Source: Synergistaceae bacterium
GTDB lineage: Bacteria > Synergistota > Synergistia > Synergistales > Synergistaceae
DNA length: 36,168 nt
Direction: 5' to 3'
Assembly: GCA_031289955.1 (NCBI GenBank)
Contig: JAITOL010000092.1
Location: 1 to 36,168 of the forward strand
Shown: positions 5,719 through 33,685 of the stretch, piece by piece
How the letters are laid out: every line of letters starts with the position of its first letter
Numbering within the stretch: the stretch's first letter is position 1
The notes under the pieces: generated by a model
What the model was told of the DNA's origin: nothing
Database searches by the model: none
Seen by the model: only the letters and a program-made list of their open reading frames with translations
Translations under genes and position numbers: made by a program

Positions 5719-7593
5719 TCAGCGCGCCTCCCTGTGTATTCTCTCTATGGCGACCTGAACGAGCTGTATGTCGACGTTGTTCACGCCGGGCACGCGCGAC
5801 GCCTGACCCAACGTGCGGGGACAGATTTTTCCCAATTTTTCCGCCGACTCGGCGGACAGGCCGGTTATGCGGGAATATACCAGATCGTCCGGTATGCGCA
5901 GGCGCTCCATTGACGAGAGCCGCCGCACCCTTCGCTCCTCGCGCTGGGCGTAGCCCTCGTATTTCACGTCCACCTCTATGCGCCGCCACGATTCTCCGTC
6001 TATATCCGCGTCGATCATGCCTGAGATGTCGCGCCACGATACCTCCGGACGCCTCAGGAGATCCAGCGCCGATGCGGGCTCGTCGAGCGGAGACGACATC
6101 AGCCCGGCCAATATGGAGTTTATGCCGTCGGAAGCCGGTATTCTCGTGCGGAGCAGCTCCTCGCGCGCGGACGCGGCCAATTCACGCTTCGCGGCGAGTT
6201 CGCTCCAGAGTTCATCGCTTATGAGCCCGAGCTCGCGCCCTATGCCGCACAGACGTTCGTCCGCGTTGTCGTGCCTCATTATGAGCCTGTGCTCACATCT
6301 GCTCGGCAGCATCCTGTACGGTTCGTCGGTCCCCCTCGACGTCAGGTCGTCAATGAGGACTCCGATGTAAGCCTGATCGCGTCCCAAAACGAGCGGGTCG
6401 CGCCCCTGGACGGACAAAGCCGCGTTCACCCCGGCAATGAAGCCCTGGGCCGCCGCTTCCTCGTAGCCGGACGTTCCGCATATCTGACCGGAGCAGTAAA
6501 GGCCCTTCACGGCCCGCGTCTCCATCCAGGGCTCGAGCTGTGTCGGCACGACGTAGTCGTATTCTATTCCGTAGCCGGGCCTCAGCATCAACGCCCTCTC
6601 GCACCCAGGGAGCGTGTGGATTATCTCGAGCTGCACGTCCGGCGGCATGTATGTCGAAAAGTTCTGCATGTATATCTCGCGGCTGTTTCTGCCGACCGGT
6701 TCGAGAAATATCGGGTGTGAGTCCTTGTCCGGAAATTTCAAAATTTTGTCGTCGAGCGACGGACAGTACCGCGGCCCCTTTACGCCTATCTCGCGTGTAG
6801 CCAGCGGCGAACGGCCCAAAGACGCTTTGAGTATGTCGTGGGTTCTGGCCGAGGTTCTCGTCTTGCCGCAGTAGTGTCCGGTGTGGACTTTCTTCGGGCT
6901 CCAGTGGGAGAACGCCTCCGGCGTCGGATCGCTCCCCTGGAGTTCGAGCGACTCCCAATCGACGCTAAAGCGGCATATGCGGGGCGTCGTATCCGTGCGG
7001 AACCTCCTGAGCTCGATTCCGCACCTTGTGAGCGACTCCGACAGCCCGAAACGCGACGGCATCTGCCCGAGCGGGCCGGACTCGAAACTGACGAGCCCCA
7101 TGTGGACGAGCCCCCTCATATAAGTCCCGGCAGCCACGACGACCCTCCGGCACGAAAATTTCTCCCCCGCCAGAGTGCGAACCCCGGCGATTTGCCCGTC
7201 CTCCACAACCACTTCAACGGCCATGCCCTGATATACGTGGAGGTTAGGCGCTGCCGCAAGCGTTCTCGTGTAGTGCGCTCCGTAGTCCCGGAGGTCGCAC
7301 TGGGCGCGGAGCGTTCTGACGGCGTATCCCTTCGACGTGTTGAGCCACCTCAGATGGAGCGTCGCCTCGTCGGTGGCTCTCGCCTGCTGCCCTCCCAGCG
7401 CGTCGAGCTCCCGGACGAGGTTTCCCTTTGCCGGCCCTCCTATGGCCGGGTTGCACGGCATCAGGGCCATATTGTCCAGATTGTGGTTGAGCATCAGCGT
7501 GCGGCATCCCATTCTGGCAGAGGCCAGAGACGCCTCGCAGCCCGAATGTCCTCCCCCTATGACTATGACGTCGTAGTCGCGTTTTTCGTCCAT
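5719..7593 (-). CDS. mnmG: tRNA uridine-5-carboxymethylaminomethyl modification enzyme MnmG (GidA)
   Basis: FAD-dependent subunit that, with MnmE, installs the (carboxymethyl)aminomethyl group on the wobble uridine of several tRNAs. The 624-residue length is standard. The N-terminal FAD-binding motif is VIVIGGGHSGCEA, followed by the family blocks NPAIGGPAKGNLVRE, GTYMRGLVHMG and DTTPRICRFSVDWE. Later come GYGIEYDYVVPTQLEP and the FAD-proximal block GLYCSGQICGTSGYEEAAAQG. The C-terminal helical domain ends with GVNNVDIQLVQVAIERIHREA. It starts one base before recF ends and is followed three bases later by the DciA-like gene, so it is cotranscribed with the replication genes. No mnmE is in this window. 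Confidence 0.96.
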   Translation of the reverse strand: MDEKRDYDVIVIGGGHSGCEASLASARMGCRTLMLNHNLDNMALMPCNPAIGGPAKGNLVRELDALGGQQARATDEATLHLRWLNTSKGYAVRTLRAQCDLRDYGAHYTRTLAAAPNLHVYQGMAVEVVVEDGQIAGVRTLAGEKFSCRRVVVAAGTYMRGLVHMGLVSFESGPLGQMPSRFGLSESLTRCGIELRRFRTDTTPRICRFSVDWESLELQGSDPTPEAFSHWSPKKVHTGHYCGKTRTSARTHDILKASLGRSPLATREIGVKGPRYCPSLDDKILKFPDKDSHPIFLEPVGRNSREIYMQNFSTYMPPDVQLEIIHTLPGCERALMLRPGYGIEYDYVVPTQLEPWMETRAVKGLYCSGQICGTSGYEEAAAQGFIAGVNAALSVQGRDPLVLGRDQAYIGVLIDDLTSRGTDEPYRMLPSRCEHRLIMRHDNADERLCGIGRELGLISDELWSELAAKRELAASAREELLRTRIPASDGINSILAGLMSSPLDEPASALDLLRRPEVSWRDISGMIDADIDGESWRRIEVDVKYEGYAQREERRVRRLSSMERLRIPDDLVYSRITGLSAESAEKLGKICPRTLGQASRVPGVNNVDIQLVQVAIERIHREAR

Positions 7594-23045: not shown

Positions 23046-25031
23046 GTGCGATTTCTCCGTGCCGCGGCGTTTTGGGTCGTCGTGTCCGCCGTTTTGCTGT
23101 GCGCGTCCCGCGCGCCGGCAGTGAGCCTGGAAGCCGGAGGCGCGATCCTGATGAACATGAAATCGGAGAGCGTGCTTTACGTCCAGAGCGAGGATGCGCG
23201 GATAGCGCCGGCCTCTTTGACCAAGATAATGACGCTTCACGTGGCGTTCGACGCCATAGCGTCCGGGCGCGCGTTTCTGTCCGACGACGTAAGGGTCAGC
23301 CGGCGGGCCGCGTCACAGCCGGGCGCTCGATTGAATCTGGGGGCGGGAGACGTAGTCTCTCTGGATATGCTGATAGCCGGCGCCGCCATTGCGTCCGGAA
23401 ATGACGCGGCCGTCGCGGTCGCCGAGCATATCGGAGGCTCCGTCGAGGCGTTTCGGAATATGATGAACGAGAAGGCCGCCGAACTCGGCATGACGCGGAC
23501 GGTTTTCAGGAACCCGAACGGCCTGCCGTCGAGCGGGCAGGTGACGACGGCCCGGGATATGCTAGCCCTGTCGAAAAGCTACATTGAAAAATATCCGGAG
23601 GCGCTCGAACGTTATCACAAGATTCCCAATATAAAGTACAAGGGGAAGACGACGACGAATAAAAACCCGCTGCTCAGGATGTTTCCCGGCGTTGTCGACG
23701 GGCTGAAGACAGGATGGACGAACGCTTCGAAGCATTGCCTGATCGCTACGGCACAAAGCGGGGACATCCGTCTTGTATCGGTGATTCTGGGCTCTCCAAC
23801 GGCGGAAGATCTGACGCGGGGATCGGCGTTCCTGATGGAGGCCGGTTTCAATACGGTGGCGAGCGGAGGGGCGGTCAAGGTGATCTCCCAGTTGGAAGCG
23901 AGGGAGAAGGGCATATCGATCGACATTCCGATCCGGGTCGATCGGGCTTCGCCCGAGACGTTCCTTGACGCGTCCCCCGATATATCCGGGGATAAACCCC
24001 TCGTTTCATCGGGCGACGGCATGATGATCCCGCCCGATGTCGAGGCGTGGCCCGGGGATGAGCCTGAGATAAACCCGGGGGATGACACTGAGTTCGACAT
24101 GGATTTCGACGAGACCGAATTTGACGACCCATCGGTCTGGATCGGACAAAGCGAGCCAGGGGCCGAATGGAGGAAGGGAGATACCGCATTGAGGGAAATA
24201 GATGCCCGCCAGATCATCGAGGCGGTGGAGGCGCTCTGCGTCGAGGCGAATTACGTCATAAACGGCGATATCAAAGCGGCGCTCGAACGGGGCCTCGAGG
24301 CCGAGGAGGACGACGTCTCGCGAGACGTTCTCGAGCAGTTGATAGAGAACGCCGAAATAGCCGCCGAAGGAGAACTTCCGCTATGTCAGGACACCGGGAT
24401 GACCGTCGTGTTCGTCGAGATAGGTCAGGATGTTCGCGTTACCGGTGGTTCCATACGGGACGCGGTAAACGAGGGCGTCCGCCGCGGCTACAGGGAGGGC
24501 TATCTGCGAGCGTCCGTCGTAGCGGATCCGGTCGACAGGGTGAACACCGGGGACAACACCCCCGCGATCGTGTATTTCGACATAGTGCCTGGCGACAAGC
24601 TCAGGATAATAATCGCTCCCAAGGGTTTCGGCAGCGAGAACATGAGCCGCACGGCAATGCTCAAGCCGTCGCAGGGAATCTCCGGCATACGCGAATTCGT
24701 CGTAGACACGGTCAGGGCCGCCGGGCCGAACCCATGCCCCCCGATAATCGTCGGGGTGGGGGTGGGAGGCACGGCCGATTACGCCGCGCTTCTGGCGAAG
24801 CAGGCCCTCTTGAGGCCGGTCGGCGCCACGAACGAAAACTGGATATGGAGAGGGTTGGAGGATGAGCTTCTCGAGGCGATAAACGCGCTCGATATAGGCC
24901 CTGCCGGCCTCGGAGGACGCACTACGGCGCTGGCGGTTCATATAAAGACGTTCCCGACGCACATCGCCGGGCTTCCGGTGGCTGTCAATATCGGCTGTCA
25001 CGCGACCAGACACGTCGAGATAACTCTCTAG
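23046..25031 (+). CDS. PBP5-like D-Ala-D-Ala carboxypeptidase in one frame with fumarase alpha subunit
   Basis: One open frame of 661 codons from GTG at 23046. Residues 1-25 form a signal peptide, and residues 26-260 are a serine DD-peptidase with SLTK (S57, K60), SGN (117-119) and KTG (221-223), so it would trim peptidoglycan outside the membrane. Residues 265-380 are an acidic, proline/aspartate-rich tail (for example DFDETEFDDPSVW). From residue 382 a full-length class I fumarase alpha subunit follows (see separate entry). Each half alone has normal length (381 and 280 residues). An exported enzyme joined to a cytoplasmic Fe-S enzyme is topologically odd; either an internal start makes the fumarase separately, or a stop codon has been lost by mutation or assembly error. 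Confidence 0.75.
   Translation: MRFLRAAAFWVVVSAVLLCASRAPAVSLEAGGAILMNMKSESVLYVQSEDARIAPASLTKIMTLHVAFDAIASGRAFLSDDVRVSRRAASQPGARLNLGAGDVVSLDMLIAGAAIASGNDAAVAVAEHIGGSVEAFRNMMNEKAAELGMTRTVFRNPNGLPSSGQVTTARDMLALSKSYIEKYPEALERYHKIPNIKYKGKTTTNKNPLLRMFPGVVDGLKTGWTNASKHCLIATAQSGDIRLVSVILGSPTAEDLTRGSAFLMEAGFNTVASGGAVKVISQLEAREKGISIDIPIRVDRASPETFLDASPDISGDKPLVSSGDGMMIPPDVEAWPGDEPEINPGDDTEFDMDFDETEFDDPSVWIGQSEPGAEWRKGDTALREIDARQIIEAVEALCVEANYVINGDIKAALERGLEAEEDDVSRDVLEQLIENAEIAAEGELPLCQDTGMTVVFVEIGQDVRVTGGSIRDAVNEGVRRGYREGYLRASVVADPVDRVNTGDNTPAIVYFDIVPGDKLRIIIAPKGFGSENMSRTAMLKPSQGISGIREFVVDTVRAAGPNPCPPIIVGVGVGGTADYAALLAKQALLRPVGATNENWIWRGLEDELLEAINALDIGPAGLGGRTTALAVHIKTFPTHIAGLPVAVNIGCHATRHVEITL
24189..25031 (+). 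CDS. Class I fumarate hydratase (or tartrate dehydratase) alpha subunit, probable internal start
   Basis: The frame from TTG at 24189 encodes 280 residues, the usual length of the alpha subunit of two-part Fe-S fumarases, and starts as these proteins usually do (REIDARQIIEAVEALCVEAN). Cysteines that would hold the [4Fe-4S] cluster are in LPLCQDTGMT, NPCPPIIVG and NIGCHATRH. Family blocks include RRGYREGYLRASVV and KGFGSENMSRTAMLKPS, plus GVGVGGTADYAALLAKQALLR. An AGGGAG lies eight bases before the TTG, a well-placed ribosome site, which favours separate synthesis. The TTGA here would be a usual stop/start overlap if the upstream gene were in the next frame. L-tartrate dehydratase is an alternative; the beta gene follows by 11 bases. 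Confidence 0.68.
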   Translation: MREIDARQIIEAVEALCVEANYVINGDIKAALERGLEAEEDDVSRDVLEQLIENAEIAAEGELPLCQDTGMTVVFVEIGQDVRVTGGSIRDAVNEGVRRGYREGYLRASVVADPVDRVNTGDNTPAIVYFDIVPGDKLRIIIAPKGFGSENMSRTAMLKPSQGISGIREFVVDTVRAAGPNPCPPIIVGVGVGGTADYAALLAKQALLRPVGATNENWIWRGLEDELLEAINALDIGPAGLGGRTTALAVHIKTFPTHIAGLPVAVNIGCHATRHVEITL

Positions 25032-26873: not shown

Positions 26874-27575
26874 ATGGAGACAGACGTCAGACCGGCAAGA
26901 AAATATGAAAAGGTGGTTGGCGCCATAAAGGATGCCATCTCGCGCGGCGAGCTGGCATACGGCGACGCGCTGCCGCCGGAGCGGGCGATGATAGACCAGT
27001 TCGGGGTGTCGCGCGGTTCGCTCAGGGAGGCGTTCAGTGTGCTCGAGTTGCTCGGGCTCATCGAAAGCAAGCCGGGGAGCGGTCGTTTTGTGCGCAGCCC
27101 CCACGCATTCCCCGAGGGGTCGAGCGCGGGCGCGGTTCCTCTCGAAAGCTCCGCCGTGCTCGAACTCATGGAGGCCCGCCGCATACTCGACCCGGCCATA
27201 GCGTCCGAGGCCGCCCGCAGGTCGTCCCCGTCCGATATGACCCGCATACGGAGGATACTCACGTCGACGAGGGAAAATCTGGACGACCTCACCCACAGGG
27301 CGAGGTCGGATTTCGACTTTCACATGGCGCTGGCGTCCGCGACCCAGAATTTTCTGTTCGTGAATATCGTGCGGATGGAGTTCAATCTGATAATGGCGAC
27401 GCACGAGAGCATATATGGGCTGCTCGAGGACAAATGCGCCTTCGCGGATGAGCATGAGGCGCTTTATGAGGCCATAACTGTGCACGACGCGAATCGGGCG
27501 TCCGCCGCGGCCTCTTTGCATATCGACAGGATATACAGGACGCTTTTGGGCGCTTTCGCGATGTTTCAGCCGTGA
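26874..27575 (+). CDS. GntR-family transcriptional regulator, FadR/FCD subfamily
   Basis: A 233-residue two-domain regulator. Residues 1-75 are a winged helix (GDALPPERAMIDQFGVSRGSLREAFSVLELLGLIESKPGSGRFVR in outline, read in pieces: ALPPERAM, VSRGSLREA, GSGRFV). Residues 95-225 form an all-helical FCD domain with the metal-site pattern DFHMALASATQN (D and H) and later SAAASLHIDRI. FCD regulators usually sense small organic acids or acyl compounds. It leads directly into the HD-domain and hydro-lyase genes (41-base gap) and is likely their controller, with operators upstream of itself. Effector unknown. Confidence 0.9.
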   Translation: METDVRPARKYEKVVGAIKDAISRGELAYGDALPPERAMIDQFGVSRGSLREAFSVLELLGLIESKPGSGRFVRSPHAFPEGSSAGAVPLESSAVLELMEARRILDPAIASEAARRSSPSDMTRIRRILTSTRENLDDLTHRARSDFDFHMALASATQNFLFVNIVRMEFNLIMATHESIYGLLEDKCAFADEHEALYEAITVHDANRASAAASLHIDRIYRTLLGAFAMFQP

Positions 27576-27616: not shown

Positions 27617-28177
27617 ATGAGGGAAAAGATAAGGAAAATGCTGCCGGAAATAGAGTGGATACTCGATAAGGGTCTTCAGGAGAAGGTGCTCGCCAGCTAC
27701 GAGGACGCGCTTGAAACGGGGGGCTGGGCGCCGGAGGATATGGATCGCATTCCGTTCACGCTGCTCATTCCCGACTGTCCAGCCTCGTACCTGACGCATG
27801 TCCGGGGCGTCACGAGGATGGCGTATCACGCCATGAAGGAGTTCAACGAGCTCTATGCCACGCCCGACGGCAAGTTCAGGATGGACAACGACCTGCTTGT
27901 AGCGGGCGCGCTGCTTCACGATGTGGGCAAGCTCGTCGAGTACGAGAAGGCGCCGGACGGCGGGACGGTGAAGTCGCGGTTGGGAAAAGACCTGAGGCAT
28001 CCCTTCTCGGGAACCGTGATCGCGCTGCGCAACGGGTGCGATTCGGCCATCGGCCACATCATAGCGAACCACGCGCACGAGGGCGACGGGACGCTCCGCA
28101 GTCCGGAGGGCGTGTTGGTGAACAAGGCGGACTTCATGAACTTCGAGGGGATGAAGAGCTTTTTGGGAATGAAGTAG
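27617..28177 (+). CDS. HD-domain metal-dependent hydrolase-family protein
   Basis: A 186-residue HD-superfamily protein, probably a phosphohydrolase. The motif set is visible: H near residue 61 (LTHVRGVTRMA), the HD doublet in LLHDVGKLVEYE (H101, D102), HPFSG near 133 and NHAHEGD near 152. Substrate unknown. It lies between the GntR gene and the first hydro-lyase pair, with GGGAGG before its ATG, and appears cotranscribed. Why an HD enzyme accompanies aconitase-like genes is unclear: it could act on a nucleotide or signal molecule, or on an organophosphate intermediate. Confidence 0.8.
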   Translation: MREKIRKMLPEIEWILDKGLQEKVLASYEDALETGGWAPEDMDRIPFTLLIPDCPASYLTHVRGVTRMAYHAMKEFNELYATPDGKFRMDNDLLVAGALLHDVGKLVEYEKAPDGGTVKSRLGKDLRHPFSGTVIALRNGCDSAIGHIIANHAHEGDGTLRSPEGVLVNKADFMNFEGMKSFLGMK

Positions 28178-28268: not shown

Positions 28269-29549
28269 ATGGGCAAAACGATGATAATGAAAATCATGGA
28301 ACGGGCGGCTCACAAGGAGGTCCACACCGGAGAGCGCGTATGGTGCGACATAGACTGGTCGACCGCTCGCGACTTCGGCGGGGCGAACTGCACTCTTCAG
28401 TTCGACGAGATAACGGAGAACAAGGGAAAGGTCTGGAACCCGGAGCGCATCGCGTTTACGTTCGATCTTCAGGCGCCGTCTCACTCCGAGAAGGTGTCGA
28501 ACAACCAGAAGATAATCCGCGAGTTCGCCCGCAGGCAGGGGATCAAACACGTTTTCGACATCAACCGCGGCATAGGGCAGCACGTTTTGCTGGAACACGG
28601 GCATGTCCTGCCCGGCGACGTCATTCTGGGCACGGACAGCCACATGAACCTGCTCGGCGCTGTGGGCGCGTTCGCGACCGGCGTTGGCAACACCGACATC
28701 GCCGCGTCGTGGCTCAACGGCACGAACTGGTTCCGGGTTCCCGATACGATGAAGATAGAGGTGACGGGCGAATTTCCGTGCGGCGTTTCCATGAGGGATT
28801 TCCTTACGCTCCTGGTCGGCGACCTCGGAGCCGGGGGCCTGGATTTCCTCGCCGTCGAATTCACTGGCGACGCGATAGACCGCGCGACTTTGGCCGAGCG
28901 CATAACGCTCTGTTCCATGGTGACGGAGATGAGCGGCAAGATAGGGCTCATCCTGCCGAGCGGGGCCGTGCTCGACTGGCTGGCGGAGCGCGCCGGGCCG
29001 GAGGCCAGGGTCCGCGCCGGGGCCATCAAGCCCGATCCGGACGCTGTCTACATCGAGACGCGCAAATACGACGTATCCAGGCTCGAGCCGATGGCGTCCT
29101 GCCCGGACGCGCCGGACAACGTGAAGCCGGTGCGGGAGATAGCGGGGACGCGGGTCGATCAGGTCCACATCGGAAGCTGCACGAACGGGCGTTTCGAGGA
29201 TATCGCGGCGGCTTACGAGGTTCTGGAGCGAGGAGGTTTCAAGGTCTCGCCGGACGTTCGCACGATAATAACCCCGGCTACGACCGAGGTCATGAAAAAG
29301 TGCGCCGAGCGCGGGATGATCGAAAAATTCCTCGACGCGGGGATCGTCTTCACGAACCCGACGTGTTCGCTCTGCACCGCCGAGCATTACGGGGCGCTGC
29401 CGAGCGGCGACGTGGGATGCTCCACGACGAACCGCAACTTCATCGGCAAGGTGGGCAAGGGAAGCCATACGTATCTCCTGAGCCCGATGACGGCAATGGC
29501 CACGGCTGTGCGGGGCGTGATAACGGATCCCCGCGACATCGTCTGCTAA
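28269..29549 (+). CDS. LeuC-type aconitase-family hydro-lyase, large subunit (first pair)
   Basis: A 426-residue [4Fe-4S] large subunit of the 3-isopropylmalate dehydratase/homoaconitase group, which isomerises a hydroxy-acid by dehydration and rehydration. Cluster cysteines are C304 (GSCTNGR), C366 and C369 (TCSLCTAEH). Other blocks: GHVLPGDVILGTDSHMNLLG, VGAFATGVGNTDIAASW and GCSTTNRNFIGKVGKGS. The usual DSHTTTHGA-type motif reads DSHMNLLGA here, and G(T/R)TE reads GNTD, so substrate contacts may differ. The ATG at 28269 has GAGGGGG seven bases upstream. The matching small subunit follows after 17 bases. LeuC itself is unlikely since no leuA or leuB neighbours are present; substrate unassigned. 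Confidence 0.85.
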   Translation: MGKTMIMKIMERAAHKEVHTGERVWCDIDWSTARDFGGANCTLQFDEITENKGKVWNPERIAFTFDLQAPSHSEKVSNNQKIIREFARRQGIKHVFDINRGIGQHVLLEHGHVLPGDVILGTDSHMNLLGAVGAFATGVGNTDIAASWLNGTNWFRVPDTMKIEVTGEFPCGVSMRDFLTLLVGDLGAGGLDFLAVEFTGDAIDRATLAERITLCSMVTEMSGKIGLILPSGAVLDWLAERAGPEARVRAGAIKPDPDAVYIETRKYDVSRLEPMASCPDAPDNVKPVREIAGTRVDQVHIGSCTNGRFEDIAAAYEVLERGGFKVSPDVRTIITPATTEVMKKCAERGMIEKFLDAGIVFTNPTCSLCTAEHYGALPSGDVGCSTTNRNFIGKVGKGSHTYLLSPMTAMATAVRGVITDPRDIVC

Positions 29550-29566
29550 AAGGGGGAATATACGAT

Positions 29567-30094
29567 ATGAGCGATGTATTGAAGGGCCGCGCGTGGGTCT
29601 TCTCCGACGACGTGGACACCGACCTGATCTATCACAATAAGTATCTTGCGGAGACGGATCCGAAAAAGATGCCCCAGTATTCGTTCGAGTACTATCCGGG
29701 CAAGGAGAATTTCGCGCGCGAGGTAAAACCGGGCGACTTCATCGTGGCCGGCAAGAACTTCGGCTGCGGATCGAGCCGCGAACACGCCGTCTACTGCCTC
29801 AAGGAGGCCGGAGTGCCTGCCATCCTGGCCGAAACCTGTTCCCGCATATATTATCGGAACGCCATAAACAACGGATACCCTGTTCTCTTCGTCAAGGGGC
29901 TTTCCGAGGCGATCAAGGCGGGGAAGATCGGGGACGGCGACGATCTGGAGGTCGATATCTCGACCGGCTCGATAAAAGACGCGACGAACGGCGCCACGTT
30001 CCACGGAGACGCTGTGAGCGACCTCGAGCGCGACATAATGTCGGCCGGGGGTCTCATCCCATATTTGAAATCGCGGAAAAAGGACGTGAGATGA
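29567..30094 (+). CDS. LeuD-type hydro-lyase, small subunit (first pair)
   Basis: A 175-residue swivel-domain partner of the preceding large subunit. Family blocks: FSDDVDTDLIYHNKYLAETD, then VKPGDFIVAGKNFGCGSSREHA and SRIYYRNAINNGYPV. The loop that sets substrate size in this family (YLRT in archaeal homoaconitases, YLVY in isopropylmalate isomerases) reads Y26-L-A-E29 here, so it lacks the arginine that contacts a distal carboxylate. The ATG at 29567 has AGGGGGA upstream. Its end overlaps the ATG of the second large subunit by four bases. Confidence 0.85.
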   Translation: MSDVLKGRAWVFSDDVDTDLIYHNKYLAETDPKKMPQYSFEYYPGKENFAREVKPGDFIVAGKNFGCGSSREHAVYCLKEAGVPAILAETCSRIYYRNAINNGYPVLFVKGLSEAIKAGKIGDGDDLEVDISTGSIKDATNGATFHGDAVSDLERDIMSAGGLIPYLKSRKKDVR

Positions 30095-31350
30095 TGGGCC
30101 GGACATTTGCCGAAAAAGCGCTTGGAAGGGCTGTCGGGCATCCGGTGAACGCGAACGAGGTCGTCACGGTCGAGCCTGATTTCTGCATGAGCCACGATAA
30201 CACGGGCCCCATATCCCGCACGTTCAAAAAAATAGGCGTCAAAAAAGTTTGGAAGCCGGAACGCCTCGTCGTCATCCTCGATCACGGCGTGCCGGCCCCG
30301 TCGAGCGATCACGCCGTAAACCACAAAGAGGCCCGCGAATTTATGCAAAACCAGGGCGCGCCTCACTTCTACGACGTTTCGAGCTCGGGAGGGGTATGCC
30401 ACCAGAAATTTCCGGAGGAGGGCTTCGCTCTGCCCGGGCAGATAGTGATCGGCAGCGACAGCCACACATGCACATATGGCGCGTTCGGGACGTTCGCGAC
30501 GGGCATCGGCCGCACGGAGATGGCCGCGGCCTGGGCCACGGGGAACATCTGGTTCAAGGTTCCGGAGAGCATGAAGGTTACGGCAAAGGGACGGCTCGGC
30601 AAAGGAGTATCCGCGAAGGACTTCATCCTCAAGGTCATGGGAGACGTCAAATCCGACGGGGCCGACTACATGAGCGTCGAGTTCCACGGCGACGGCATAG
30701 AGAGCATGAGCGTGGCGTCTCGGATGACGCTCTGCAACCTCGGCATAGAGATGGGAGCCAAAAACGCCGTCTGTAAGCCGGATCAGAAGGTGCTCGACTT
30801 TATAAGGGGGCGTGAAAAATCGAGCGGCTGGGAGGTTCTCTGGGCCGATCCGGACGCCGATTACGTCAAGGAGTACAGCTACGACCTGGGAGAGATAACG
30901 CCCGGAGTCGCGAAGCCTCACACGGTCGACAACTACGCTCCGATAGCCGAGGTCGCCGGGACCGCGATAAACCAGGCTTTCATCGGGACGTGCACGAACG
31001 GGAGGCTCGAGGATCTGCGCGCCGCGGCCGAGATATTGAAGGGTCGTAAGGTGGCGGTGCGGACGATCATCATACCGGCGTCCTGGAACATTTACCGCGA
31101 GGCAATGCATGACGGCACGCTCGACGCGCTGCTCGACGCGGGCTGTATAGTCTGCAATGCCGGCTGCGGCCCGTGCCTCGGCGCTCACATGGGCACGCTC
31201 GCCCCGGGAGAGGTCTGCGTCAGCACGGCAAACCGCAACTTCAAGGGGAGAATGGGCGACAAGGAGAGCTTCATATACCTGGCGAGCCCACGAACAGTTG
31301 CGATGAGCGCAGTAACAGGCAAAATCTCCGACCCGAGGGAGGCGTTTTAG
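30091..31350 (+). CDS. LeuC-type aconitase-family hydro-lyase, large subunit (second pair)
   Basis: A 419-residue paralogue of the first large subunit, in the same [4Fe-4S] hydro-lyase family but more canonical. Cysteines are C301 (GTCTNGR), C359 and C362 (GCGPCLGAH). Typical motifs are HGVPAPSSDHAVNHK, GSDSHTCTYGAFGTFATGIGRTE and VSTANRNFKGRMGDKES. It begins with ATGATG overlapping the previous stop, so it is translationally coupled. Two different pairs in one operon suggest two successive isomerisations, or two substrates, in one pathway. Length is typical of archaeal-type LeuC/HacA proteins. Confidence 0.86.
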   Translation: MMGRTFAEKALGRAVGHPVNANEVVTVEPDFCMSHDNTGPISRTFKKIGVKKVWKPERLVVILDHGVPAPSSDHAVNHKEAREFMQNQGAPHFYDVSSSGGVCHQKFPEEGFALPGQIVIGSDSHTCTYGAFGTFATGIGRTEMAAAWATGNIWFKVPESMKVTAKGRLGKGVSAKDFILKVMGDVKSDGADYMSVEFHGDGIESMSVASRMTLCNLGIEMGAKNAVCKPDQKVLDFIRGREKSSGWEVLWADPDADYVKEYSYDLGEITPGVAKPHTVDNYAPIAEVAGTAINQAFIGTCTNGRLEDLRAAAEILKGRKVAVRTIIIPASWNIYREAMHDGTLDALLDAGCIVCNAGCGPCLGAHMGTLAPGEVCVSTANRNFKGRMGDKESFIYLASPRTVAMSAVTGKISDPREAF

Positions 31351-31351
31351 C

Positions 31352-31846
31352 ATGAAGATAAAAGGACGCGTCTGGAAATACGGCGACGACGTGAACACGG
31401 ACGTCATATTCGCGGGAAAATACACGTACACGATAAAGGATCGCGCCGAGATGGCCCGCGTCGCGCTTGAGGATCTCGACTCCGACTTCACGAAGAACGC
31501 CTCACCCGGCGACATAATCGTTGCGGGCAAAAACTGGGGCTGCGGATCGAGCCGCGAGCAGGCCGCCATCTGCCTCAAGGAACGCGGGATAGGGGCGATA
31601 ATAGCCCGCGGTTTCGCCCGCATCCACTATCGCAATTGCCTCAACGAGGGGCTCCCCATCATCATATCGTCCGAGCTGCAGGATTTGATCCAAAAAGGCG
31701 ACGAGATAGAGATAGATTTCGACTTGGGGGAGATAACGGCCGCCGGAAAAAAGATAAAGTTTCCTCCGTATCCCGAATTTGTCCAGGGATTGGTGAACGA
31801 CGGAGGGCTCATTCCGCACGTTAAAAAATCGCTCGGATTGGCCTGA
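31352..31846 (+). CDS. LeuD-type hydro-lyase, small subunit (second pair)
   Basis: A 164-residue small subunit partnering the preceding gene (one base separates the stop and the ATG). Family blocks: KYGDDVNTDVIFAGKYTYT, DIIVAGKNWGCGSSREQAA, and FARIHYRNCLNEGLPIII. The substrate-loop tetrad is Y24-T-Y-T27, again neither YLRT nor YLVY. A possible weak hairpin (AGGGG near 31846 with CCCCT near 31872) lies beyond the stop, before the PPOX-family gene. Confidence 0.86.
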   Translation: MKIKGRVWKYGDDVNTDVIFAGKYTYTIKDRAEMARVALEDLDSDFTKNASPGDIIVAGKNWGCGSSREQAAICLKERGIGAIIARGFARIHYRNCLNEGLPIIISSELQDLIQKGDEIEIDFDLGEITAAGKKIKFPPYPEFVQGLVNDGGLIPHVKKSLGLA

Positions 31847-31923: not shown

Positions 31924-32361
31924 GTGAAAAAAAGTGTGGATGGCAGGAGTGAAGCTGTAGAAAAAGCTTTGAAACTACTGGGCGCCGCTAAAACTCACTA
32001 TTTGGCAACGAATGGGTCTCACGGGCATCCGAACCTGAGAGCTATGGCGCCGCTCAAGATCGACGGCGTGAAGAGCGTCTGGTTCGCGACATACGAGGGA
32101 TCGAGCAAGGTGCAGGAGCTGCTGAAGGACGGAAACGCCGTGATATACGCGGAGGCGTCCCGCGACGCCACTGAATGCAGGTTGTGGGGTAACATAGAGG
32201 TTCTCTCGGACGACGCGTCGAAGAAATATGTCTGGAGCGAGGAACTGAGGGATCATTTCCCGGACGGAGCGGATTCCCCGGAGATGAGGGTGCTTCGTTT
32301 CGACGTATCGAACGGGATTTACATCGATAAAAATAGAGAGATCTTCGAATTTAAAAACTAA
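31924..32361 (+). CDS. Pyridoxamine-5'-phosphate-oxidase-family (PPOX) flavin-binding protein
   Basis: A 145-residue split-barrel protein resembling the general stress protein 26/PPOX group, which binds FMN or F420. Supporting blocks: THYLATNGSHGHPNLRAMAPLK, WFATYEGSSKVQELLKDGNAVIYAE and CRLWGNIEVLSDD, with RVLRFDVSNG near the end. The start is GTG at 31924 with AGGGGG about eight bases upstream. It sits between the hydro-lyases and the dehydrogenase-family gene, so it probably shares their transcript. Its reaction is unknown; it is rarely a biosynthetic PdxH, being too short and lacking that enzyme's typical C-terminus. Confidence 0.78.
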   Translation: MKKSVDGRSEAVEKALKLLGAAKTHYLATNGSHGHPNLRAMAPLKIDGVKSVWFATYEGSSKVQELLKDGNAVIYAEASRDATECRLWGNIEVLSDDASKKYVWSEELRDHFPDGADSPEMRVLRFDVSNGIYIDKNREIFEFKN

Positions 32362-32425: not shown

Positions 32426-33685
32426 ATGAGTCGTGACGTTATGAGGGTAAAAGAGAAGAAGGACCGCTACAAGGTGTGCTACATGTCCGGGGACGACTCC
32501 GGATTCGATATGATGGAGGGCGCGCTGCTCGTTCTGGAAGCCATGAACCTCCCCATAGACTGGGTGAGGGCTGACCTCGGTTGGTGTATGTGGGAGAAGT
32601 CGATAGCGAAGTTCGGCGAGGGCGATCCGCGGTGCAACACAGTTCCGCCCGAGACGATCGACGCCATAAAGAACACGGACGCGACTCTGATGGCCGCGAT
32701 TACGTCGAAAGCGGGCGTCAAGGGCTTCAAATCCGCCATCCTCCAGATGCGGCAGTTGTTCGACCTCTACATCAACCTGCGCCCCGCAAAGACCCTGCCG
32801 GGAATAGGGACTCCGCTCAAGGGCGACCCCAAGATAGATATAGTGATGTTCCGCGAGAACACGGAGGATCTATATTCCGCGGTCGAGTTCTATCCTCTGC
32901 CGCCCGAGCAGTTCGACCTGCATCCTGGCATGGAGCGCTTCAAAAAGTGCAGCGAGGTCGCGGTGTCGTGGCGCGTTTTCTCGAAAGAGGGCTGTGAGCG
33001 CATAATCCGCGCGGCATTCGAGTACGCGCGCAGCTCGGGCAGGAAGACGGTTCACTGCGGCAACAAGGCGAACGTAATCCGCCAGACGGATGGCATGATG
33101 AAGAGGATATTCCTCGAAATAGCGAAAGAATACGAACAGTACGGTATAAAGGGCATAGAGGAGAACGCTGACGCTACCGCGATGTGGCTCATCAAGAACC
33201 CGCAGGACTACAGCATCGTCGTGGCGAGCAACGTCTTCGGCGACATCCTCTCCGACGAGGCGAGCCAGCTCACCGGCGGTCTCGGCTTCGCCCCGAGCGG
33301 CAACATCGGAGCGGACGCGGCGCTTTTCGAGCCGTCGAGCGGCTCAGTGCCCAAGTATGCCCACAAGTACCGCGTGAACCCGTCGGCGATGCTGCTGACT
33401 TCGAAGATGATGCTGGAGTATCTCGGGCTCGATTCCGAGGGCGCGAAGATAGAAAAGGCGATCGGAGAGGTGCTGGTAGAGAACAAGCCTGGGACGCTGA
33501 CATACGACATTCTGCGCGACTTCAGGGGAGACCCCGACTGGGAGCGCGACGCCGCGTCGACGATAGACATGGCTGCCGCCATCGCGGGTAAGATCGACCC
33601 GAATTTCAAGGGAGAGCGCCTCGAGAAGGCCAAAGCGAAAGTCCGGGCCATGTGCGACTGGACGAAGACGGTCGGGTTCGAGTAA
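32426..33685 (+). CDS. Isocitrate/isopropylmalate-dehydrogenase-family oxidative decarboxylase
   Basis: A 419-residue metal-dependent beta-decarboxylating dehydrogenase, closest in layout to E. coli-type isocitrate dehydrogenase (416 residues). Counterparts of E. coli S113, R119, R129, R153 and Y160 are S103, R109, R119, R143 and Y150, all at a constant offset of ten. The isocitrate-contacting N115, however, is I105, and the stretch SAILQMR resembles the hydrophobic L90/L91 site of isopropylmalate dehydrogenases. Metal aspartates are in FGDILSDEASQ. The cofactor region GSVPKY keeps the Lys-Tyr pair associated with NADP use. The substrate may therefore be an alkyl-malate rather than isocitrate. 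Being last in the hydro-lyase cluster fits isomerase-then-dehydrogenase chemistry. Confidence 0.85.
   Translation: MSRDVMRVKEKKDRYKVCYMSGDDSGFDMMEGALLVLEAMNLPIDWVRADLGWCMWEKSIAKFGEGDPRCNTVPPETIDAIKNTDATLMAAITSKAGVKGFKSAILQMRQLFDLYINLRPAKTLPGIGTPLKGDPKIDIVMFRENTEDLYSAVEFYPLPPEQFDLHPGMERFKKCSEVAVSWRVFSKEGCERIIRAAFEYARSSGRKTVHCGNKANVIRQTDGMMKRIFLEIAKEYEQYGIKGIEENADATAMWLIKNPQDYSIVVASNVFGDILSDEASQLTGGLGFAPSGNIGADAALFEPSSGSVPKYAHKYRVNPSAMLLTSKMMLEYLGLDSEGAKIEKAIGEVLVENKPGTLTYDILRDFRGDPDWERDAASTIDMAAAIAGKIDPNFKGERLEKAKAKVRAMCDWTKTVGFE

Follow-up and report, generated by a model that had tools for sequence, protein, structure and literature searches.

A conserved Synergistota operon encodes an isocitrate dehydrogenase-like enzyme of a distinct clade with a putative homoisocitrate-type recognition site

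The window analysed here (the whole 36,168-nucleotide stretch, contig JAITOL010000092.1) belongs to a Synergistaceae genome assembled as 219 contigs (2.65 Mb, 95.6% complete), whose nearest relatives are Synergistaceae metagenome-assembled genomes. It carries a tightly packed forward-strand cluster in the order GntR, HD, LeuC1D1, LeuC2D2, PNPOx-like and IDHx, the last being a beta-decarboxylating dehydrogenase, and this arrangement is conserved across Synergistota:

26874..27575, forward strand: GntR/FCD-type regulator, first gene of the cluster (Pfam GntR and FCD)
27617..28177, forward strand: HD-domain protein, also found in a WOR-3 cluster (Pfam HD)
28269..29549, forward strand: LeuC1, aconitase/isopropylmalate-isomerase large subunit (NF001614, 437 bits, cut-off 385)
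29567..30094, forward strand: LeuD1, small subunit (TIGR02087, 160 bits, cut-off 109)
30091..31350, forward strand: LeuC2, second large subunit (HacA_Meth 470 vs LEU2 463 bits, both below cut-off)
31352..31846, forward strand: LeuD2, small subunit with an invariant GKYTYT loop (TIGR02087, 182 bits)
31924..32361, forward strand: PNPOx-like flavin protein (Pfam Pyrid_ox_like and PNPOx_N)
32426..33685, forward strand: IDHx, NADP-type beta-decarboxylating dehydrogenase, 419 aa (Pfam Iso_dh, 253 bits)
32732..32752, forward strand: IDHx codons 103-109, first part of the substrate-recognition helix (residues 113-119 of E. coli Icd), with the Asn-to-Ile difference

Most Synergistota loci long enough to include its position keep the regulator upstream. 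The PNPOx-like gene, between leuD2 and IDHx, is confined to the sub-lineage of the window, in which citrate lyase genes (citDEF) are no longer adjacent, and its product probably lies outside the core pathway.

The recognition helix of IDHx reads S103-A-I105-L106-Q-M-R109 (codons TCC at 32732, ATC at 32738, CTC at 32741 and CGG at 32750). A sequence-only reading had proposed that the enzyme follows E. coli Icd at a constant offset of ten with Ile in place of the isocitrate-contacting Asn, and alignment bore this out: S113, R119, R129, R153 and Y160 of Icd correspond to S103, R109, R119, R143 and Y150, while N115 and V116 correspond to I105 and L106. SAILQMR and SLNVALR align without a gap, and no shifting of gaps brings the Asn back. 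The Lys-Tyr NADP signature noted in that reading turned out to be stronger than claimed, as all five Icd residues compared (K344, Y345, V351, Y391 and R395) are kept as K310, Y311, V317, Y360 and R364. IDHx shares its catalytic and five NADP residues with Icd, including the K344/Y345/Y391/R395 equivalents expected of an NADP-dependent isocitrate dehydrogenase (IDH), but lacks the Asn at the Icd 115 position, and differs from Icd in Ile105/Leu106 versus Asn115/Val116, in Ser305 versus His339, and in falling into a separate clade. The AlphaFold model of IDHx has a mean pLDDT of 89.8. At residue 305 (33338-33340), the Ser aligned with the adenine-contacting His339 (EPSSGS) is present in 34 of 40 Synergistota members, although the other residues of their NADP site are unchanged; the His is retained in deeper-branching Synergistota and in all outgroup sequences.

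IDHx homologues of at least 59% identity were present in 43 of the 151 Synergistota genomes sampled, plus one fragment. Ile occupies column 105 in every one of the 40 Synergistota members compared (identity as low as 68%) and in all 18 sequences of an outgroup clade, whereas the 18 canonical relatives retrieved by the same search all have Asn; a basal Synergistota member (L145) has Val-Ile at the 105-106 positions. The outgroup clade, which includes Bacteroidota, Ignavibacteriota, Acidobacteriota, Elusimicrobiota, WOR-3 and others, is about 40-45% identical to IDHx over the best segment (about 47-50% in another comparison) and differs at the neighbouring residues (L-Q in IDHx, V-R in the outgroup). 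Ser103 is invariant across the Synergistota, outgroup and canonical sequences compared, and a published table of dimeric and monomeric NADP-IDHs has Asn at the 105 site in every entry (PMC3521221). Because the Ile is fixed in both Synergistota and outgroup, I105 reflects neither chance nor sequencing error.

The best NCBIfam match of IDHx was the methanogen-type homoisocitrate dehydrogenase model AksF2 (287 bits, cut-off 540); AksF gave 264 bits (cut-off 500), and the LeuB model TIGR00169 gave 157 bits (cut-off 353); all equivalog scores of IDHx are thus below the curated cut-offs. Single-residue variants of IDHx were rescored against these models. Restoring the Asn (I105N) cost 4.3 bits in AksF2, 4.1 bits in AksF and about 4 bits in the LEU3_arch and isocitrate-homoisocitrate models, and gained 4.5-5.3 bits in the main IDH models. 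With Gly or Glu in place of S103, about 3 bits were lost in the AksF and IDH models (about 2.8 for Gly in the AksF models), and S103G helped or hardly mattered in LeuB-type models. The LeuB model preferred Leu at position 105, and Leu106 was favoured by LeuB-type models only, with Val suiting AksF2 and IDH. The Ser and Ile preferred by the AksF/AksF2 models (NF040626 and NF040619 between them), a preference read from HMM scores rather than from a direct AksF sequence alignment, are both present in the IDHx helix. By these scores Ser103 with Ile105 is the predicted homoisocitrate-dehydrogenase combination, and the only isopropylmalate-like residue is Leu106. The hydrophobic I105-L106 pair does occupy the 115-116 positions as in LeuB, and the isopropylmalate-like pair suggested from the sequence holds for its second member and not for its first.

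The same mixture of likeness and difference appears against characterised enzymes. Thermus thermophilus homoisocitrate dehydrogenase (HICDH; PDB 1x0l, 3asj) shares about 36-37% identity, the Ile at the N115 position and the fold, but has Gly for the Ser, Arg for Leu106, and NAD-type Asp-Ile for Lys-Tyr. Relative to AksF/AksF2, the gene setting differs, and IDHx has the full NADP signature and a longer C-terminus. The LeuB proteins compared have hydrophobic residues at both positions, as in IDHx, but lack the Ser and carry NAD-type residues; in the alignment, Gly replaces it in the genome's own LeuB (itself of the Asp-Ile NAD pattern), in E. coli LeuB and in DmlA, where the IDHx clade keeps Ser. 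Phylogenetically, IDHx and the outgroup are united (support 100/100) and stand apart from all Asn-bearing IDHs (100/98), so that IDHx did not group with characterised IDHs; its position relative to LeuB and DmlA is unsure, with long branches. Foldseek ranked IDHs and HICDH together and gave no discrimination. On sequence evidence, IDHx belongs to an uncharacterised clade, neither that of the isocitrate dehydrogenases nor that of the isopropylmalate dehydrogenases, and its site is homoisocitrate-like. The earlier picture of a single enzyme mixing two families gives way to one member of a clade spread over several phyla, and an ordinary isocitrate dehydrogenase with a drifted residue does not describe it, given the separate clade and the fixed Ile.

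Family searches of the genome itself identified three Iso_dh proteins: LeuB, a eukaryote-type NADP-IDH and IDHx. The LeuB gene lies on contig C203, clustered with leuA, leuC, leuD and ilvB, and the single PF00682 protein of the genome is leuA-like and sits inside this leucine cluster. With a separate IDH and LeuB available, IDHx is probably no housekeeping isocitrate dehydrogenase. A role in leucine biosynthesis was likewise rejected, given this LeuB and LeuA elsewhere in the genome and outgroup genomes without LeuA (G003, G004, G006 and G016, in each of which LeuA was not found and one PF00682 match of HMG-CoA-lyase (HMGL) size was). A PF00285 search of the window's genome did not detect (Si-) citrate synthase. 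Other contigs carry two citDEF sets whose CitF falls in the clade of the IDHx modules. Contig C152 (L087) separately carries a cluster of LeuC-LeuD, a PrpD-family protein, aconitase, the eukaryote-type IDH and a LysR regulator.

Both LeuCD pairs of the operon are hydro-lyases of the aconitase family. The methanogen homoaconitase model outscored the LeuC model slightly for LeuC2 (470/463 bits) and more clearly for outgroup LeuC proteins (480/439 and 462/429 bits); for LeuC1 the homoaconitase model was not above the LeuC model. The LeuD1 loop YHNKYLAE is nearly invariant. Arg is absent from both LeuD loops, for which (YLAE and YTYT) no verifiable motif match was obtained, and a YLRT motif was not found in the literature search. 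The LeuD1 gene of one relative (L007, 7108-7620) has an in-frame TAA at 7219, from either a sequencing error or a pseudogene.

Downstream of IDHx, the operon typically continues into citrate lyase genes. Among PNPOx-less loci with room, citE directly follows IDHx in 22 of 24, mostly with citD and citF, and in none of 14 PNPOx-bearing loci with room downstream. The CitF proteins of IDHx modules form their own clade (100/100), separate from a clade (100/99) of CitF from canonical modules, which combine aconitase and E. coli-type Icd, or aconitase and eukaryote-type IDH, with citDEF. The E. coli-type Icd of these modules (60-61% identity) has Asn in the four checked. Such canonical-IDH modules were seen at L137 (6280-12496), L138, L139, L141, L143 and L146; those of L137 and L139 share the order of the IDHx module (hydro-lyase, dehydrogenase, citD, citE, citF) but have canonical aconitase and IDH and the other CitF clade. 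Citrate synthase is missing from most sampled Synergistota members, and the canonical modules are a candidate glutamate-to-acetate route running from 2-oxoglutarate through citrate to acetate and oxaloacetate, which would account for the citrate lyase activity of strains that ferment glutamate. The two module types occur together in several genomes. That the IDHx module is found beside canonical ones, equipped with separate hydro-lyases and a separate lyase, suggests that it handles a different, homologous substrate.

Gene neighbourhoods in the outgroup offer a more specific clue. There, genes for an HMG-CoA-lyase relative and a class III (CaiB-type) CoA-transferase often come after that of the dehydrogenase, and LeuC-LeuD often as well. 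Citrate synthase, aconitase and monomeric IDH are also present in G003, G006, G009, G013 and G016, so that the IDHx-like enzyme is an extra one in these genomes; the idea that it serves as sole IDH, with the Ile compatible with the TCA cycle, is refuted by the same three enzymes. In one Elusimicrobia locus (L056, 10019-19423), genes for the IDHx-like, HMGL-like and CoA-transferase proteins, LeuC and LeuD are joined by three lysine genes: a lysine-ketoglutarate reductase (LKR; best PDB match human AASS, 299 bits), a saccharopine dehydrogenase (SDH) 78% identical to that of a second Elusimicrobia locus (L054), and an aminoadipate-semialdehyde / L-piperidine-6-carboxylate dehydrogenase (AASADH; 785 bits, cut-off 730). 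In L054 (5672-13449), the cluster is followed by LKR and SDH, the latter matching the fungal and human enzymes at 316-333 bits. The LKR route ends at aminoadipate/2-oxoadipate. No lysine genes were found near canonical control loci, and one Synergistota module (L142) has an AASADH gene upstream in divergent orientation (757 bits). Aminoadipate genes thus lie beside homologues in L054, L056 and L142 only, and two hydro-lyase pairs occur in Synergistota loci. A WOR-3 locus (L044, 10013-18124) combines an IDHx-like gene, both LeuCD pairs, an HD protein, SucCD-like proteins and a citryl-CoA-lyase-family protein, and the HD protein is common to the WOR-3 and Synergistota clusters. Homoisocitrate as substrate is supported more strongly by the outgroup operon, most clearly that of L056, than by the Synergistota evidence.

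We tentatively favour, at somewhat less than an even chance, IDHx as an NADP(H)-dependent enzyme of homoisocitrate and 2-oxoadipate working in the carboxylating direction, with its operon as a chain-shortening module; here we infer the substrate, the direction, the assignment of the two hydro-lyases and the cleavage products. Lysine or aminoadipate would yield 2-oxoadipate, which IDHx would carboxylate with CO2 and NADPH to homoisocitrate; LeuC2D2 and LeuC1D1 would convert homoisocitrate through homoaconitate to homocitrate, and a CitDEF-type citrate lyase would cleave homocitrate to acetate (or acetyl-CoA) and 2-oxoglutarate. Since homocitrate isomerisation needs two aconitase-family enzymes in fungi and Thermus (PMC3556520), the two LeuCD pairs fit this scheme. 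A "bulky malate" as substrate, proposed earlier from the site, would be loosely right in that homoisocitrate can be viewed as malate bearing a carboxyethyl branch; overall, the observation behind that reading was confirmed and its interpretation partly supported. Put more broadly, and with slightly less confidence, several phyla may degrade 2-oxoadipate (from lysine or aminoadipate) by a reversal of the alpha-aminoadipate route of lysine biosynthesis, with three unrelated final lyases, namely a CitDEF type in Synergistota, a citryl-CoA-lyase type in WOR-3 and CoA-transferase with an HMGL type in Elusimicrobia, Acidobacteria and Ignavibacteria, the operon in the window being one version. A limited literature search did not find a reverse homocitrate route described, and novelty is not established.

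Several observations weigh against the homoisocitrate assignment. Lysine genes are adjacent in two outgroup loci only, with one such gene in one Synergistota locus; IDHx and the outgroup are distant, down to their site neighbours; Thermus HICDH carries Gly and Arg in place of the Ser and Leu of IDHx; and every equivalog score is under its cut-off. The cultured carriers point both ways. In favour of the assignment, Thermanaerovibrio acidaminovorans is reported to ferment lysine, yielding acetate and propionate, and to show citrate lyase activity, with isocitrate dehydrogenase activity undetected (PMC3035242). A scan of its whole chromosome (G029) found an Icd module and the IDHx-citDEF module in full. 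Homologues of LKR, SDH and AASADH were not found there, apart from one weak partial LKR match, and neither was a match to the aminomutase homologue EpmB. Because these genes were not found, lysine use by this route in Thermanaerovibrio would lack any known form of its opening steps. Aminomonas paucivorans shows no growth on lysine and forms acetate from glutamate (PMC3035310), and G051, apparently this species, carries the IDHx module.

This absence of lysine genes and non-use of lysine keep alive, for Synergistota, an alternative that we rate as less likely than homoisocitrate yet as its most serious rival: that IDHx acts on isocitrate and 2-oxoglutarate, with the Ile tolerated for isocitrate binding, in a glutamate fermentation without citrate synthase that leads from 2-oxoglutarate through isocitrate and citrate to acetate and oxaloacetate. 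The layout shared with canonical aconitase-Icd (60%) or eukaryote-type IDH modules with CitDEF would suit it, as would the retained equivalent of Icd Ser113, the NADP residues, and the fermentation of glutamate to acetate by A. paucivorans (PMC3035310). IDHx is moreover the sole IDH detected in G035, G092 and G093, and in G035 and G092 the only aconitase-family large subunits detected are the operon's own; class I fumarase genes, which lie immediately upstream of the module in L005 and L013, would fit oxaloacetate as a product. Against it, the Asn is invariant in tabulated NADP-IDHs (PMC3521221) and in canonical relatives, IDHx coexists with canonical aconitase-IDH-CitDEF modules of a separate CitF clade, two hydro-lyases would be superfluous, and IDH activity went undetected in T. 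acidaminovorans (PMC3035242).

A 3-alkylmalate with no third carboxylate (3-methylmalate or 3-isopropylmalate) is an improbable substrate. In that case the operon would shorten 2-oxobutyrate or the 2-oxoacid of leucine through a citramalate-lyase-like or isopropylmalate-lyase-like step, and the hydrophobic I105-L106 pair, the preference of LeuB-type models for Leu106, the missing Arg in either LeuD loop and the CitDEF-like nature of citramalate lyase are all consistent with this. The Ser at the Icd S113 position is, however, absent from the LeuB and DmlA compared, the genome has its own LeuB clustered with leuA, leuCD and ilvB, and outgroup clusters are joined by lysine rather than branched-chain genes. 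Methylaspartate mutase, found in 2 of 151 genomes of the phylum, is nearly absent, which counts against an alkylmalate and also led us to reject methylaspartate glutamate fermentation. An oxidative IDHx acting on an imported tricarboxylate, with the lyase in a separate branch, is very doubtful, since a search of the flanks for transporters conserved beside the cluster found none, even if GntR/FCD regulators often control organic-acid catabolism. Citrate fermentation by T. acidaminovorans (PMC3035242) would be compatible with such a role.

If reversed homocitrate chemistry does operate here, the biosynthetic route of fungi, Thermus and methanogens would gain a catabolic counterpart, and amino-acid-fermenting anaerobes a CO2-fixing, electron-consuming cleavage of 2-oxoacids to acetate. 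It would also help to locate the gaps in lysine and glutamate breakdown among uncultured bacteria of gut and sediment, and would correct automatic annotation, which tends toward isocitrate or isopropylmalate dehydrogenase, the two-residue marker of Ser and Ile then telling the enzymes apart.

Upstream of the operon, the window also encodes (23046-25031) a D-Ala-D-Ala carboxypeptidase-like domain and a class I fumarase alpha domain in one 661-aa frame. The same fusion, at 617 aa, occurs in L005 (2737-4590) and L013 (2692-4545); each is followed by a fumarase beta gene, and the fusion pairs a secreted-type with a cytosolic-type domain.
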